Shown here: positions 1,161 to 17,281 of the stretch, piece after piece
How positions within the stretch are numbered: the first letter of the stretch is position 1
How the letters are laid out: each line of letters opens with the position of its first letter
From: a virus
Virus record (IMG/VR): IMGVR_UViG_3300008259_000366
Location: 1-27,822 of that record
Length of the DNA: 27,822 nucleotides
Strand: one strand, 5' to 3'
Position numbers and translations under genes: made by a program
The notes under the pieces: generated by a model
Databases searched by the model: none
What the model was told of the DNA's origin: nothing
Seen by the model: only the letters and a program-made list of their open reading frames with translations

Positions 1161-2597
1161 ATGATAGAAAAAATATTAAATTTCAATAATAAAAAAATTG
1201 ATCCGACTATAATAAATGAGCATCAAATAAAAAACTTAGTTTTTTATTTGATGGATACAATAATGTCAAATTTAGATGGTGATGTGGTTGAATTAGGATG
1301 TTATGTTGGGGAATCGTCAAAATATTTGATGAAAACTATAATAGAAACTGATTCAAAAAAAAAGTTATTCGTATATGATTCTTTTGAGGGTCTACCCCCA
1401 TTATCTCAATGGGAGGAAAACTCAGGTTGGAAACCGGGGACATTATCAACCACTCAAGATACTTTAATATCAAATTTTATACAAAACAATATACCAACAC
1501 CTATAATACATAAAGATTGGTTTTCTAATATTCCTGAAGAAAAATTACCAAATAAAATTTGTTTTGCATTTTTAGATGGTGATTTTTATGACTCAATCTA
1601 TGATAGTCTCAAAAAAATATACGATAGAGTTGTTGATGGTGGATATATAATTTTTCACGATTATGATAGGAGTGACTTGCCAGGTGTTAAAGCCGCTATA
1701 GAAACTTTTTTTAAAGAAAAAAACATTGATTTCGAAGTAACTCAAGTTACAAATCAATTAGGTGTTTTGAAAAAAAATAATAAATTGACTCAATTTTTAC
1801 CTAAAATTAATATAAAAAAGACAACACTTGTAACAGGATTATGGGATATTGGTAGAGGGGATCTTAATGAAGGTTGGTCAAGATCATTTCAACATTACCT
1901 GAATAAATTTGAAGAACTCTTAAAAGTAGATACCAATCTAATAATTTTTGGTGACAAAGAACTTGAGAAGTTTGTGTTTGATAGAAGGAGTTCAGAAAAT
2001 ACCCAATTTATTTTAAGAGATTTAAGTTGGTTCAAAAATAATGAATATTATGAACTAATACAAAATATTAGAAAAAACCCAAATTGGTATTCACAATCAG
2101 GATGGTTACCAGATTCAACTCAAGCAAAACTTGAGATGTATAACCCATTGGTTATGTCAAAAATGTTCTTGTTAAATGATGCAAAAATTGTTGACAGATT
2201 TAACTCAGAAAAATTATTTTGGATTGATGCAGGTCTTACAAATACCGTTCATTATGGTTATTTTACACACGATAAAGTATTAGATAAAATAAATCAAAAA
2301 TTTGATAAGTTCAACTTTATATGTTTCCCATACGATGGAAAGGTAGAAATACACGGATTTGAATATAAAAAGATGTGTGAATATTCAAATAGTGAAGTTA
2401 GTATGGTTGCAAGAGCGGGATTTTTTGGTGGTGATAAAGAATATATCTCAGAAATAAATTCTTTGTATTACCACTTATTAATGACTTCCCTTAAAGAAGG
2501 ATTGATGGGAACAGAAGAATCTTTGTTTACAATTTTAACTTATAAACATCCTGATTTAATAAACTATTATGAAATAGAAAATAATGGTATTAAATAA
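1161..2597 (+). CDS. TylF-type O-methyltransferase fused to HtrL/YibB-like domain
   Basis: A 478-residue two-domain protein. Residues about 35-200 match a TylF/macrocin-O-methyltransferase fold: the SAM loop VVELGCYVGESS (about 42-53), the acidic strand VYDSFEGLPP (about 71-80), the metal and catalytic strand FAFLDGDFYDS, and GGYIIFHDYD. Residues about 220-478 begin TTLVTGLWDIGRGDL and contain LIIFGDKELEKFV, FWIDAGL and GLMGTEESLF, which I recognise as the HtrL/YibB (WlaTC-like) family associated with lipopolysaccharide and capsule loci and probably glycosyltransferase-like. A fused methyltransferase and sugar transferase suggests stepwise modification of a glycan. It ends in a 14-base out-of-frame overlap with the GT2-like gene. 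That junction looks abnormal (see the next entry), and the fusion may once have continued into it. Confidence 0.7.
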   Translation: MIEKILNFNNKKIDPTIINEHQIKNLVFYLMDTIMSNLDGDVVELGCYVGESSKYLMKTIIETDSKKKLFVYDSFEGLPPLSQWEENSGWKPGTLSTTQDTLISNFIQNNIPTPIIHKDWFSNIPEEKLPNKICFAFLDGDFYDSIYDSLKKIYDRVVDGGYIIFHDYDRSDLPGVKAAIETFFKEKNIDFEVTQVTNQLGVLKKNNKLTQFLPKINIKKTTLVTGLWDIGRGDLNEGWSRSFQHYLNKFEELLKVDTNLIIFGDKELEKFVFDRRSSENTQFILRDLSWFKNNEYYELIQNIRKNPNWYSQSGWLPDSTQAKLEMYNPLVMSKMFLLNDAKIVDRFNSEKLFWIDAGLTNTVHYGYFTHDKVLDKINQKFDKFNFICFPYDGKVEIHGFEYKKMCEYSNSEVSMVARAGFFGGDKEYISEINSLYYHLLMTSLKEGLMGTEESLFTILTYKHPDLINYYEIENNGIK

Positions 2598-3285
2598 CTC
2601 AACAGATAGATCAACAGATCAAGGATATAAAGAACTGTGTGATAAATATGATTTTACAATTATAGATCCTGGTTCAAATTTAGGCATTTGTGGTGGCAGA
2701 CAATACATTGCAGAACACTTTGATAGAACAGATTCTGACTTTATGTTTTTCTTTGAAGATGATATGTTCTTTTATCCAAAAAAAGGTGAAGTATGTAAAA
2801 ATGGTTTTAATAGGTATGTAGACAATTTATATTCCAAAAGTTTAAAAATTATTCAAAAAGAAAATTTTGATTTTCTAAAACTTAATTTTACTGAGTTTTT
2901 TGGTGACAATTCAGTCCAGTGGTCTTGGTATAATACTCCACAATCAGTAAGAGAACAACTTTGGCCAGCTTATTCAAAGCTTCCTCAACAAGGGTTAGAT
3001 CCAAATGCTCCAAAAGCCAAATACAGTTCAGTTAGATCTTTAGAAGGAGTTCCTTATGTAACAGGAGAAGTATATTATTGTAATTGGCCACAAATTGTTT
3101 CAAAAGAGGGTAACAAAAAAATGTTTTTAGATACAAAATGGGCTCACCCATTTGAACAAACCTGGATGAGTTATATGTATCAAGAGACTGTTAAAGGAAA
3201 TATAAAGCCTGGTCTCCTTTTGATGACCCCAACTGAACATAATAGATTTGATCATTATTCTAGAGAATTGAGAAAAGAGAGTTAA
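2584..3285 (+). CDS. GT2-like glycosyltransferase lacking its N-terminus
   Basis: The 233-residue product starts directly with VLNNSTDRSTD, equivalent to the NNgSTD motif that normally lies about 30-40 residues into a family 2 glycosyltransferase. It continues with the nucleotide-sugar strand (GSNLGICGGRQY) and a metal-binding FFFEDDMFF, matching the DxD/EDD position. The usual first strand and P-loop-like start (IVIPTYN type) are absent. An in-frame TAG lies at 2575-2577, so no longer upstream reading is possible. The upstream fusion gene ends in the +1-shifted frame within the first codons here, consistent with an internal deletion plus frameshift that joined two genes or two domains of one protein. 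The truncated protein may be non-functional. The EDD region and C-terminal half look intact. Confidence 0.6.
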   Translation: MVLNNSTDRSTDQGYKELCDKYDFTIIDPGSNLGICGGRQYIAEHFDRTDSDFMFFFEDDMFFYPKKGEVCKNGFNRYVDNLYSKSLKIIQKENFDFLKLNFTEFFGDNSVQWSWYNTPQSVREQLWPAYSKLPQQGLDPNAPKAKYSSVRSLEGVPYVTGEVYYCNWPQIVSKEGNKKMFLDTKWAHPFEQTWMSYMYQETVKGNIKPGLLLMTPTEHNRFDHYSRELRKES

Positions 3286-3326: not shown

Positions 3327-4163
3327 ATGGAATTCTTTATAAAACAAAATACCACCTTACCTCTTTTAAAAATGCAAATTGTAAAGGATGGTAAAACCGA
3401 TTATAGACACATATGTGACATTATTGAAAGGTCATCCATTTATTTTTCTATGGTTGATGACGCAACCGGTATTCCAAAAATAATTTCAGCAGGTGCTGGT
3501 TTTGTTAACAAGGTATTTATTGAACCAAATTCTTTACCTGAATATTATTTGTATTATAGATTTACAAAAAATGATACAAATAGATCAGGAAGATATAGGG
3601 GTGAATTTACACTTTTGAGTGATGAGGGGACTTTGGTTGTTCCATTATCTGACATTCTATACATTAACATTCCTGAAAATTTGGTTTCTGATGAATCTGA
3701 TGATAATTGTGGTGAACCAGGATTTCCTTGTTGTGATGATGATGAACCATTATCATATAGCTTCGAACTTAATATAATAGTTTCTTCGGGTTCTATTATT
3801 GTAGATTCTGAAATAATATCAGATAAACCACTCATAACCGATGCTACCGCAACTTTTGATACATTTTTATTAACGACTGAGGGAGACCCAATACAAGTCC
3901 CAACAGAAGTGACTATTAAACAGGGTGAAAAGATCGGATCAGTTCAATACACAATAAATGGTGATTACAATAATTTAAATGGATCGATTTCAATTGCCAA
4001 TATGAATATAGTATTTCTTGATAGATCTATCGATTATTCAACAGATGAAAATAGTCCTAAATTCGAACAATATATCAGTGATGCAATAATAACGGAAGTT
4101 AAGAATGAATATATACAAGTTGGTTTGAATATATATTTATCATATATCGATTCACCAAATTAA
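3327..4163 (+). CDS. Putative baseplate/fibre protein with BppU-like N-terminal domain (copy 1)
   Basis: A 278-residue protein. Residues 1-115 (MEFFIKQNTTLPLLKMQIVK onwards) are clearly paralogous to the product of 6670-7170: both share the start, IYFSMVD..T.IPKII, YYLYYRFTKNDTNRSGRYRGEF and a DEGT...LYINI ending. The shape, an opening strand then a polarised-material-law-like beta sandwich, resembles the N-terminal domain of phage upper-baseplate protein BppU (DUF2479-like), which anchors receptor-binding parts to the baseplate. A short Cys/Asp-rich hinge follows (CGEPGFPCCDDDEP, about 127-140), then a second beta-rich domain unrelated to the paralogue. Fifteen bases separate it from the large fibre gene downstream. 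BppU kinship is inferred from pattern; a virion role is well supported by context. Confidence 0.5.
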   Translation: MEFFIKQNTTLPLLKMQIVKDGKTDYRHICDIIERSSIYFSMVDDATGIPKIISAGAGFVNKVFIEPNSLPEYYLYYRFTKNDTNRSGRYRGEFTLLSDEGTLVVPLSDILYINIPENLVSDESDDNCGEPGFPCCDDDEPLSYSFELNIIVSSGSIIVDSEIISDKPLITDATATFDTFLLTTEGDPIQVPTEVTIKQGEKIGSVQYTINGDYNNLNGSISIANMNIVFLDRSIDYSTDENSPKFEQYISDAIITEVKNEYIQVGLNIYLSYIDSPN

Positions 4164-6669: not shown

Positions 6670-7170
6670 ATGGAATTCTACATAAAAAAAGGTGCAACAC
6701 TACCTACTTTAAAATATCAAGTTGTAAAAGATGGTAGAAGTGATTATCATAGGTTTTATAACTATGTGACTGGTGACACTTTGTTTTTTTCTATGGTTGA
6801 CTCAACAACAAAAATTCCAAAAATTATAACAAGAAAAGGAAAGTTTGTTAAGTCGGAAGTAGATGATGAATATTATGCAACTTATAGATTCAGAAATTTT
6901 GATACAAATAAAGCGGGAAGATTCGAAGGACAGTTTTTAATTAAAACTGATGAGGGAACAATAGGGTTAGATCTTAAAGAAAAAATCTTTATCAATGTCG
7001 TTGAAACCATAATACCTGATCAATTTGATGGTAATGGTGGTGGATGTTATACAACTGACAACCCTTGTTGTCCTGTTCCATCATTTACACCAAGTAATAC
7101 CCCTTCGGTAACACCAACTCCAAGTATCACACCAACTCCAACATTAACTCCGACCCCAACAACACCATAA
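6670..7170 (+). CDS. Putative baseplate/fibre protein with BppU-like N-terminal domain (copy 2)
   Basis: A 166-residue paralogue of the 3327-4163 product. It shares the MEFYIKKGATLP start, VVKDGRSDYHRF, LFFSMVDSTTKIPKII, YATYRFRNFDTNKAGRFEGQF and DEGTIGLDLKEKIFINV. It lacks the second domain of copy 1; after a Cys motif (CYTTDNPCCP, about 129-138) it ends in a Pro/Thr tail (PTPSITPTPTLTPTPTTP). Nine bases separate it from the upstream fibre and three from the downstream gene, so all are probably one transcript. The pair therefore repeats the layout of small anchor gene followed by large fibre gene. It is probably a tail-tip or baseplate attachment component; the domain call rests on pattern, not on a search. 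Confidence 0.5.
   Translation: MEFYIKKGATLPTLKYQVVKDGRSDYHRFYNYVTGDTLFFSMVDSTTKIPKIITRKGKFVKSEVDDEYYATYRFRNFDTNKAGRFEGQFLIKTDEGTIGLDLKEKIFINVVETIIPDQFDGNGGGCYTTDNPCCPVPSFTPSNTPSVTPTPSITPTPTLTPTPTTP
7077..7167 (+). repeat. PTP-encoding low-complexity tail
   Basis: Degenerate repeats of CCAACTCC and ACACC type encode a C-terminal Pro/Thr/Ser run in the short BppU-like gene. The DNA resembles the tracts at 5948-5999 and 9058-9145, so it could support recombination between the structural genes. Confidence 0.75.
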
Positions 7171-12590: not shown

Positions 12591-12851
12591 ATGGAAAACA
12601 AGTTTGTAACACAAGAAGAAATGGACGAAATAAAGTCCGTTCAAAAGGATTATGAAAAGGTCTCTAAAGATTTGGGTGGTATTGAACTCCACAAAATTGC
12701 TTTGGAAGAACAAAAACAAGGATTAATTAATTTCATCAACCAAATTAGAGAAAAAGAAATGGATTTGGGTAAAAGATTGAATGAAAAGTATGGTGAAGTT
12801 TCTATTAATCCTTTAACAGGCGAAATAATTCCCGCAGATGTTAAAAAATAA
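12591..12851 (+). CDS. Small coiled-coil protein, function unknown
   Basis: An 86-residue, highly charged protein. Residues about 8-67 (EEMDEIKSVQKDYEKVSKDL and following) have a helical pattern with regular hydrophobic positions, consistent with one long coiled coil. A compact C-terminal turn reads SINPLTGEIIPA. No signal peptide or membrane segment is present. It opens a transcript after a 59-base gap that contains a possible host-type promoter, and its stop overlaps the start of the GT9-like gene by 14 bases. I do not recognise a family; size and charge would fit a small structural or assembly helper. Confidence 0.6.
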   Translation: MENKFVTQEEMDEIKSVQKDYEKVSKDLGGIELHKIALEEQKQGLINFINQIREKEMDLGKRLNEKYGEVSINPLTGEIIPADVKK

Positions 12852-13212
12852 GTATTCTATCTTTCATTTGGAGGGTGGTTTGGGTAAGCACATTGCCGCG
12901 ACTGCGGTTGCTCGATGTATAAAAAACACTCATCCTGATCGAGAACTAATTATTGTTTGTGCATATCCAGAAATTTTTATTAATTTGGATTTTGTTCATA
13001 GGGTATTTAGAATTGGGACAACACCTTATTTTTATCAAGACTATGTTCTTGATAGGGATAGTTTGTTGTTTAAACACGAACCTTATTTTACAACAGAACA
13101 TATACATAAACAATTGTCATTGATTGAAAACTGGTGTAAACTTTATAACTTAAATTATAATGGTGAAAAACCTGAGTTGGTTTTTAATTTCAGACAAAAA
13201 CAAAGAAAGTAG
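12838..13212 (+). pseudogene. GT9-like glycosyltransferase, N-terminal part (frameshifted)
   Basis: A 124-residue reading with a heptosyltransferase-type (GT-B, family 9-like) N-terminal domain: IFHLEGGLGKHIAATAVARC (residues 8-27) is the GGxGk loop, then ELIIVCAYPEIFINLDFVHR. It ends at a TAG just after PELVFNFRQKQ. The natural continuation is found in the +1-shifted frame from 13160 on, which supplies the C-terminal domain. The linker that should join them (in the family, a strand followed by a Gly-rich turn such as a KP..L.QTNGG type element) is absent. This suggests an internal deletion of a few dozen codons plus a frameshift rather than a single-base slip. As it stands, the split enzyme is probably inactive. 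Confidence 0.6.
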
Positions 13213-13663
13213 ATTTCCTTATTCTTGGAGTCGTGATATGCCTCCTTATGTTGTTGAGGGATTGATCAATCATTATAAAAATGATTATCATATTCTGCAT
13301 GTTTGTAATGATCAGGCTTTTACTTATGATGGTTCTGAACCAGTAAAAGAACAAATGTTAAATATGGAAATATTATCAATTCTACTCTCTTCAAATAAAA
13401 GGGTGTTAATTGATTCCTGCTTACAACACGCATCCGCAGCCTTAGGTCTTAAGTCTACGGTTCTTTGGGTTGGAACAGACCCCAAAGTATTCGGTTATGA
13501 TCTTCACGATAATATTAAATGTAAGGATTTGGGAGATTTCAAATTACCTGATAGTTACCTATTTAATTTCTCATTCAATGGAGAGTTATATGAATGTCCT
13601 TCAATTGATGGAGATCTTTTTGATTTAGATAGAATTATAGATAGTATAGACCACAATGGTTAA
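13160..13663 (+). pseudogene. GT9-like glycosyltransferase, C-terminal part (frameshifted)
   Basis: A 167-residue reading in another frame, overlapping the N-terminal part by 53 bases. Useful homology begins at about residue 17 (RFPYSWSRDMPPYVVEGLIN); the residues before it are an out-of-frame reading of the upstream half. It holds the donor-binding half of a GT-B enzyme: NDYHILHVCNDQAFTYD, then RVLIDSCLQHASAALGLKST and VLWVGTDPKVFGYDLHDNI, matching the DSx-x-x-HxAAALG segment of GT9 transferases. Together with 12838-13212 this was almost certainly one gene of about 290 residues or more. Its stop overlaps the start of the sulfotransferase by eight bases, so translation of this frame may still be needed for coupling. 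ATG 13160 is the only early start. Confidence 0.6.
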
Positions 13664-14572: not shown

Positions 14573-15790
14573 ATGATACCACAAGAAGAAATTAAATCAT
14601 TTCTCGAGGGAAATGATGATGAAAAGTATATCGTCTCAATTGAGTTCGATTATCAATCCGATCTAATTTACAAAATCAAAGAAATACCAGGTCAAGGTAA
14701 AGTTATTCAATCCGACAACTTTATTCCTTTTGCTTGGGTTGGAGATCTCAGACAATTTAATTTTTATGGGTCCTCAAAAGCGTTACAAAAACAAAACATA
14801 ACAAAATACGGAATCGTGATTGAAAAGTTGCGAACCGATGATAATGAAAGACTTGAGAATGGACTTAACTATATGGTTAAGTCCCTCAAGGGTTATCGAT
14901 CACTTATTCAATTTTTTAGAGATGGTGGTCTTGATCCTTATGGTGAGGGAACAAGAGACAGTGTTTTGATTCTCCCTCCAGTTGAACAGTATCTTATCCA
15001 AAAAGAAAAAAGGCTTTTCAAAGGATATGATGAATACAATGATATTACTCGATTTGTATTTGACTTAGAGACCACTTCATTAGAACCAAAGGATGGAACA
15101 ATCTTCCTAATCGGTATGAAGACCAACAAGGGGTTTATGAAGGTCATACGCTGCACCAATGAAGAAGAAGAGAGACAAGGTATCATAGAATTTTTCAGGA
15201 CAATAGATGAACTTAAACCATCAATTATTTGTGGACACAATGTATTCAACTTTGACTTCCATTGGATATTTGAAAGGTCAAGAATATTAGGTTTGGATAT
15301 TAAAAAAGTGTGTCGAGCTTTAAATCCAAATCACACAATTAAACAATCTGAAAGTTTATTGAAACTTGCAAATGAAGTTGAGAAATTTATACAAACTTCC
15401 ATTTGGGGTTACAATATTATCGACACTTTACACTCTGTTAGAAGGGCTCAAGCGATTAACTCAAATATTAAATCTGCGGGTCTTAAATATATTACCCAAT
15501 ATATCGAGGCTGAAGCTCCTGATCGTGTATATATCGAACACGATAGTATTGGTGATCTATATGATAAAAATGAAGACTATTGGTTAAACATTAAGAATGG
15601 AAAATACAAAAAAGCTGACGATCCAAAACTTGAAGACTTGGATAAAAAATTTCCTGACACATATATCAAAATTACTGGACTACAGGTAGTTGAAAGGTAT
15701 CTTGAGGATGACTTGGACGAAACACTAATTGTGGATGAAGAATTCAATCAAGGATCATTTCTTCTTGCATCTTTGATTCCCACAACATAA
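14573..15790 (+). CDS. DNA polymerase family B, N-terminal and exonuclease part (gp43-like)
   Basis: A 405-residue product carrying the N-terminal and proofreading domains of a T4 gp43-like replicative polymerase. ExoI is FDLET with D164 and E166, ExoII is GHNVFNFD with N223 and D228, and ExoIII is YLEDD with Y376 and D380, so the 3'-5' exonuclease site is complete. It ends NQGSFLLASLIPTT and then TAA at 15788-15790. The polymerase domain resumes in the same frame right after (QRVSTMGTATLW). Related polymerases have a Tyr at the stop position as far as I recall, so TAT or TAC to TAA is a likely single change. With the downstream part the total is about 902 codons, the size of T4 gp43. Either a split polymerase, as known in some T4 relatives, or a nonsense mutation or error. 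Confidence 0.85.
   Translation: MIPQEEIKSFLEGNDDEKYIVSIEFDYQSDLIYKIKEIPGQGKVIQSDNFIPFAWVGDLRQFNFYGSSKALQKQNITKYGIVIEKLRTDDNERLENGLNYMVKSLKGYRSLIQFFRDGGLDPYGEGTRDSVLILPPVEQYLIQKEKRLFKGYDEYNDITRFVFDLETTSLEPKDGTIFLIGMKTNKGFMKVIRCTNEEEERQGIIEFFRTIDELKPSIICGHNVFNFDFHWIFERSRILGLDIKKVCRALNPNHTIKQSESLLKLANEVEKFIQTSIWGYNIIDTLHSVRRAQAINSNIKSAGLKYITQYIEAEAPDRVYIEHDSIGDLYDKNEDYWLNIKNGKYKKADDPKLEDLDKKFPDTYIKITGLQVVERYLEDDLDETLIVDEEFNQGSFLLASLIPTT
15788..15790 (+). other. In-frame TAA splitting the DNA polymerase
   Basis: A single TAA separates ...LIPTT from QRVSTMGTATLW with no frame change. The ATG at 15806 follows 15 bases later, after AAAGGG, which could serve as a ribosome site for restart. Confidence 0.8.
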
Positions 15791-15805
15791 CAAAGGGTAT
15801 CTACT

Positions 15806-17281
15806 ATGGGAACTGCAACTCTTTGGGAAATGCAAATGAGAGCTTGGAGTTATAAACATAAGTTGGCAATACCCGCAAAACAGAGCAAGGCTGAGTTTGT
15901 AGGGGGACTTTCTCGATTACTCAAAGTTGGGTACTCTAAGAATGTATTGAAGCTTGACTACTCTTCTCTTTATCCATCTATTCAACTTGTTCACGATGTA
16001 TTTCCTGATTGTGATATTACAGGGGCAATGAAAGGAATGTTATCATATTTCAGAACTTCAAGGATTTTATATAAAAACTTGGCGAGCGAATTTGAGAAGT
16101 CAGATCCAAAAAAATCTAAATCATACGATCGTAAACAGTTACCCATTAAGATTTTCATCAATTCTATGTTTGGTGCGTTGTCTGCGCCTCAAGTTTTTCA
16201 TTGGGGTGATATGGATAAGGGTGAACAGATTACAACAACGGGTCGACAATACCTTAGGATGATGATCAAATTTTTTATGAAAAAAGGGTATACTGCGTTG
16301 GTAATGGATACTGATGGGGTCAATTTTAGTTGTCCTGCGGATGCTGAGGATCGTGAATATATTGGTAAAGGATTGAATTGGAAAGTTAAAGTCGGAAAAG
16401 TCTATAAAGGTTGTGAAGCGGATGTTGCAGAATTTAATGACATTTTTATGAGAGGAGAAATGGCTCTTGATACTGACGGAACTTGGCCAGCGTGTATAAA
16501 CCTTGCTCGTAAGAACTATGCGGTAATGGACGCAAAAGGTAAAATTAAACTTACTGGTAATACAATTAAGTCCAAGAAAATGCCTCTTTATATTGAGGTG
16601 TTTTTAGATGAGGCGATCAAAATGTTATTAGAAGGAAAAGGTCAGGAGTTTATAGAATATTATTATGAGTATGTAACCAAAATATTTGAAAAAAGAATTC
16701 CACTTCTTCAAATCGCTTCCCGAGCTAAGGTTAAGTTAACAATAGATGATTATATCAAAAGGAGCAAACAAACAACAAAGGCGGGAAATTTGATGTCTCG
16801 TCAAGCACATATGGAACTTGCAATAAAAGAATCTATGTCCGTAAATCTTGGTGATGTAATTTACTATGTGAATAATGGAACAAAAGCTTCTCACGGAGAT
16901 GTTCAGAAAAAGGGGGATCAAGTAATTTTAAATTGTTATAGAATAGATGACAAGGAGTTGGGTAGTAATCCTGATATGACTGGTGAATATAATGTCCCCC
17001 GAGCAATATCAACATTCAATAAAAGAATTGAGCCCTTATTAGTTGTGTTTGGTGAAGAGGTTAGAAAAGGTTTGTTGGTCACAGATCCTTCTAAAAGAGA
17101 ATTCTATACAAAAGGACAATCTGAACTTATAAATGGTGTCCCATTTGAAGATGGTGATCAAGATAAATTAGATGATGTTTTGAATCTATCTGATGATGAA
17201 GTTAAATATTGGGAAAGAGTTAATATGAACCCCGAATATATGTATGAATTGGCAAATGAGGGTTGGGTAGAATATGTTTAA
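15806..17281 (+). CDS. DNA polymerase family B, polymerase domain (gp43-like)
   Basis: A 491-residue product with the palm, fingers and thumb of a T4-like family B polymerase. Motif A is KLDYSSLYPSI (catalytic D51), motif B is KIFINSMFGALSAP (K115, N119, with Phe where T4/RB69 have the fidelity Tyr), and motif C is VMDTDGVNF (D168 and D170, with Gly in place of the common Ser). A thumb region follows (KKMPLYIEVFLDEAIKMLL). It acts with a clamp and loader at the phage replication fork. The start shown is the first ATG after the in-frame TAA; five codons upstream (QRVST) belong to the same domain. The 3' end meets a minus-strand gene on a shared TTAA, so both stops overlap. Catalytic residues are intact. 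Confidence 0.85.
   Translation: MGTATLWEMQMRAWSYKHKLAIPAKQSKAEFVGGLSRLLKVGYSKNVLKLDYSSLYPSIQLVHDVFPDCDITGAMKGMLSYFRTSRILYKNLASEFEKSDPKKSKSYDRKQLPIKIFINSMFGALSAPQVFHWGDMDKGEQITTTGRQYLRMMIKFFMKKGYTALVMDTDGVNFSCPADAEDREYIGKGLNWKVKVGKVYKGCEADVAEFNDIFMRGEMALDTDGTWPACINLARKNYAVMDAKGKIKLTGNTIKSKKMPLYIEVFLDEAIKMLLEGKGQEFIEYYYEYVTKIFEKRIPLLQIASRAKVKLTIDDYIKRSKQTTKAGNLMSRQAHMELAIKESMSVNLGDVIYYVNNGTKASHGDVQKKGDQVILNCYRIDDKELGSNPDMTGEYNVPRAISTFNKRIEPLLVVFGEEVRKGLLVTDPSKREFYTKGQSELINGVPFEDGDQDKLDDVLNLSDDEVKYWERVNMNPEYMYELANEGWVEYV

Follow-up and report, generated by a model that had tools for sequence, protein, structure and literature searches.

A single in-frame TAA in a phage family B DNA polymerase gene probably reflects an isolated substitution

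A replicative DNA polymerase gene that is interrupted by one in-frame stop codon could encode two cooperating subunits, could be read through, or could carry a point error. This question is raised by the uncultivated virus record IMGVR_UViG_3300008259_000366, whose entire length (27,822 bases, one strand) constitutes the window analyzed here. The window is likely to be part of a larger genome; relatives reside on contigs of up to 322 kb. A preliminary description had listed a new two-subunit split, stop read-through, and a point error as explanations. Here, we compared the interrupted gene with its relatives and weighed these possibilities against each other.

A polymerase reading frame broken by one TAA

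The family B DNA polymerase frame spans positions 14573 to 17281 of the plus strand and is broken at residue 406 by a single in-frame TAA (15788 to 15790). The exonuclease half (14573 to 15790) comprises 405 amino acids, ends at this TAA, and matched PF03104 (7.8e-10) and phrog_262 (3.8e-17). Beyond the stop, 496 sense codons continue in the frame of the ATG at 14573 until a TAA at 17279 to 17281; this polymerase half (15791 to 17281) matched PF00136 (1.7e-12) and phrog_262 (2.9e-30). Family B motifs are present in both parts, namely, the exonuclease DxE motif in the form of DLET and the palm motifs A (DYSSLYPS), B (NSMFG), and C (DTD within MDTDG). The motif columns D164, E166, D462, S465 to P468, N530, G534, and D579 to D581 were invariant in the alignment, and the polymerase read through the TAA aligned end to end with the single open reading frames (ORFs) of relatives, which have about 900 to 976 codons. 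The initial observation that two intact halves lie in one frame with a single TAA between them was thus confirmed, and by its motifs the window gene qualifies as a member of the family B DNA polymerases.

The preliminary description had also assigned the gene to gp43 of T4-like phages. While its identity as a polymerase holds, the T4-like label is loose: the annotated matches were phages of Salinibacter and of Anabaena/Nostoc/Dolichospermum with 24 to 28% identity, and the 17 phage records that the polymerase half matched at 1e-5 included no T4-group record. Most probably, the gene encodes an ordinary replicative DNA polymerase of family B, made as a single chain, from a large uncultivated tailed phage.

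The interrupted codon in relatives

Each half, as well as three more remote relatives, served as a query against IMG/VR, and the matches were reduced to 141 distinct gene sequences, excluding the window. The interrupted column was covered by 138 of these and was occupied by Tyr in 130 and by Phe in 8, in line with the Tyr that the preliminary description had given for relatives; the stop was found in the window only. At the nucleotide level (137 relatives), the codons were TAT (118), TAC (11), and TTT (8). A degenerate scan of IMG/VR that allowed TAA, TAG, TGA, or TGG at the codon in the context PTT-x-(E/Q)R...T(M/I)GTATLW returned 0 matches, and no relative showed matching pieces in different frames. 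Scanning with the exact context and the variable base left open gave no match to a second assembly of the same virus, in a data set from which very near records may have been excluded. A search of genome contigs for a link to a host found no relative.

The nearest relative, L002, is a 23.7-kb contig with 82% nucleotide identity over the polymerase region and 93% amino acid identity (96% for the exonuclease half and 91% for the polymerase half). It carries TAT at the interrupted codon within an intact frame of 904 codons. The polymerase genes of the window and L002 are each 2,706 nucleotides long over the aligned span, with no inserted sequence and with the stop in the window only. Most other relatives share about 59 to 75% amino acid identity with the exonuclease half and run straight on into the polymerase half. 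The head-tail adaptor and helicase neighbor genes of the window are common to G001 and G002, the two contigs that were compared. At polymerase residue 781 (window position approximately 16915), many relatives contain a C-terminal insertion of variable length (about 20 to 30 residues), which is absent in the window and in L002 to L005.

Selection and conservation on both sides of the stop

The dN/dS ratios between the window and L002 were 0.032 for the exonuclease half and 0.041 for the polymerase half, with synonymous sites near saturation. Such values indicate that past selection was strong on either half. When 72 distinct full-length proteins, among them that of the window, were aligned, 418 columns reached a conservation of 97% or more. 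The window departed from 17 of these; L002 shared 15 of the departures but not the other two, which are the stop and residue 797. Neither the dN/dS ratios nor the conserved columns reveal decay past the stop, which leaves a recent change, a change that is not real, or a harmless one. The departures common to the window and L002 are located mostly in the exonuclease half (12 of 15, e.g., residues 222, 224, and 229 near the FD motif), and the two sequences may represent a stem lineage with an unusual proofreading domain.

Further lesions in the window and in control loci

Two other genes of the window, both on the plus strand, are broken. A glycosyltransferase-like gene (HtrL_YibB; 1818 to 3282) shows a frame change at about 2590, where approximately 197 nucleotides are missing, and is a single ORF in about 30 relatives. 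A gene of unknown family (12838 to 13663), which resembles a GT-B glycosyltransferase by eye, changes frame at 13203 with the loss of approximately 68 nucleotides and corresponds to one 325-amino-acid ORF in the L002 contig. Both parts of the latter gene are conserved (dN/dS of 0.07 and 0.11), and therefore this lesion looks recent, too. The two broken genes belong to an accessory, variable region and could represent real losses; three fresh lesions in one 27.8-kb contig are nevertheless unusual.

Additional differences were observed in the window. In the ORF at 1161 to 2597, a TylF-type methyltransferase (PF05711) is fused to an N-terminal portion of an HtrL_YibB glycosyltransferase-like protein, and the counterpart of this ORF in the L002 contig has no methyltransferase. 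A further ORF (6670 to 7170, 166 amino acids), a paralogue of the ORF at 3327 to 4163, aligns with no more than the initial 145 or so residues of a 593-amino-acid ORF in the L002 contig; approximately 1.3 kb is missing between it and the next gene.

As a control, 80 loci around the polymerase gene (about 5 to 9.6 kb each) were examined, and a strongly supported gene-breaking lesion was detected in L033 only. This lesion is a lone TGA (L033, positions 3752 to 3754) at polymerase residue 324, where the related L036 has a Leu codon. It lies inside the exonuclease domain and would yield no clean domain split. Several weakly supported stops (3 to 4 queries) inside the exonuclease gene of control loci were taken as matches of out-of-frame ORFs, the gene's own frame having no stop. 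The frequency of lone nonsense codons in the polymerase gene is thus about 1 per 141 distinct relatives; a stop results from about 6% of single substitutions in this gene. Scans over many windows will hit lone stops of this sort without any underlying biology.

Weighing of recoding, read-through, and a functional split

The location of the TAA at a Tyr column, in frame within an essential and otherwise intact gene, is what reassignment of this codon to Tyr (or Gln) in the phage would produce. Yet TAA terminates 22 of the 25 main ORFs of the window, and no second in-frame TAA was found in the other window genes when these were compared with relatives. Stop-recoded phages avoid the recoded codon as a terminator and carry it in frame in many genes; the window displays the opposite pattern. 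The use of TAA as a terminator effectively refutes a reassignment, the probability of which we regard as negligible. Read-through, in which a suppressor tRNA of host or phage or near-cognate reading would yield the full-length enzyme, would restore the known architecture and could profit from the codon CAA that follows the stop, since TAA followed by C is a weak termination context. It is disfavored because TAA is the normal terminator, no tRNA gene was found in the 27,822 bases of the window (the part of this virus's genome that the tRNA survey covered), and no TAA-reading tRNA was among the ARAGORN calls for the loci with tRNA genes in six large relatives. tRNA genes were present in 6 of the 10 large relatives and had ordinary anticodons, apart from one uncertain two-base anticodon. 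A tRNA with such an anticodon belongs to a cluster of at least 12 tRNA genes in G004 (a 282-kb relative; L136, L153, L158, L160, and L162). Moreover, no relative has a stop at this column. Read-through therefore appears very improbable. Literature searched for read-through or for consensus errors in phage metagenomes yielded nothing useful.

A functional split would imply that translation stops at the TAA and restarts at the ATG at 15806, 15 nucleotides past the stop, and that an exonuclease subunit of 405 amino acids associates with a polymerase subunit of 491 amino acids (from Met 412), in analogy to gp43A/43B. Several features fit this arrangement. The motifs are kept in both halves, each of which appears to have been under strong selection, and 43A/43B of phage 25 copurify and are active (PMC2988022). 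Alignment to Thermococcales archaeal PolB structures placed the stop after the exonuclease match and ahead of palm motif A, at a site that we read as an interdomain linker. An AlphaFold model of the L002 polymerase (mean pLDDT of 65) had values below 50 at the junction (residues 387 to 418), which suggests a loop, modeled with low confidence, at the break. A split could be accommodated at this position, which in itself is no indication of one. Unusual residues near the break (QRVSTMGTATLWEMQMRAW) are common to the window and L002; however, L002 itself is unsplit. Both restart cues of the preliminary description, the ATG at 15806 and the upstream AAAGGG, exist, but their role as restart signals is unsupported: among 137 uninterrupted relatives, 126 have the Met 412 ATG and 36 have an AAGG/AGGG/AGGA-like string, in both cases as ordinary coding sequence. 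The cues thus appear to be inherited from uninterrupted coding sequence. None of the 138 relatives covering the column is split, and the stop-permitting scan (0 matches) together with the 141 distinct relatives rules out a natural split clade. Known phage splits contain an inserted spacer or endonuclease gene and not a lone substitution. Because no relative shares the stop and the restart signals occur in uninterrupted relatives, a new two-subunit split gains no positive support, and we consider it unlikely. Its special form, a first-step gene split without insertion, in which one nonsense substitution and termination-reinitiation at a preexisting ATG codon would generate a two-subunit polymerase, is rather unlikely as well. 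If true, it would mean that a single base change can divide an essential polymerase, a step that is usually credited to mobile elements.

An isolated substitution as the most probable explanation

We propose that the TAA very probably represents an isolated substitution, either an error of consensus, assembly, or amplification or a loss-of-function mutation that arose recently in a defective variant. The substitution is confined to this one assembled sequence, and the lesion would be recent or not real. The contig's two other lesions, both out-of-frame deletions (about 197 and 68 nucleotides), are counted toward an error or a dead copy. Counted against both is the placement of the stop, which lies in a tolerant interdomain place and is closely followed by an in-frame ATG, as would be expected of a working split. 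Since no second assembly of the virus was found and the verdict comes from the assembled sequence alone, an error is indistinguishable from a true mutation. We lean toward an error. Deletions of 68 and 197 nucleotides are atypical of base-calling errors, and some of the damage may have truly occurred. The point error of the preliminary description, extended to a dead copy, is thus the option that we favor. As a caution, a lone in-frame stop in an assembled contig of a phage needs to be tested against relatives before it is read as a split or as recoding.

Comparison with known split and uninterrupted polymerases

Split PolB genes are known in phages, and that of Aeromonas phage 25 is functional (PMC2988022). 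In the T4-like Aeromonas phages 25 and 44RR, the family B polymerase is encoded as two reading frames (gp43A/43B), as in the window, but intercistronic sequence or a seg homing endonuclease lies between the halves, and the split is found in more than one phage (PMC2988022). The window differs from these phages in having one substitution in one contig; judged by inserted sequence or an endonuclease between the cistrons and by occurrence in more than one phage, it would not be classed with the gp43A/43B type. In the Pseudomonas jumbo phage MIJ3, PolB is reported to be split by an HNH endonuclease/split-intein gene between the halves (PMC6892783); MIJ3 and the window share two ORFs for one PolB, with the insertion in MIJ3 only. 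The uninterrupted IMG/VR polymerases (e.g., L002, L003, and L012) have the same gene and domain order as the window, mostly with 59 to 96% amino acid identity in the exonuclease half, and carry Tyr or Phe at the position of its TAA.
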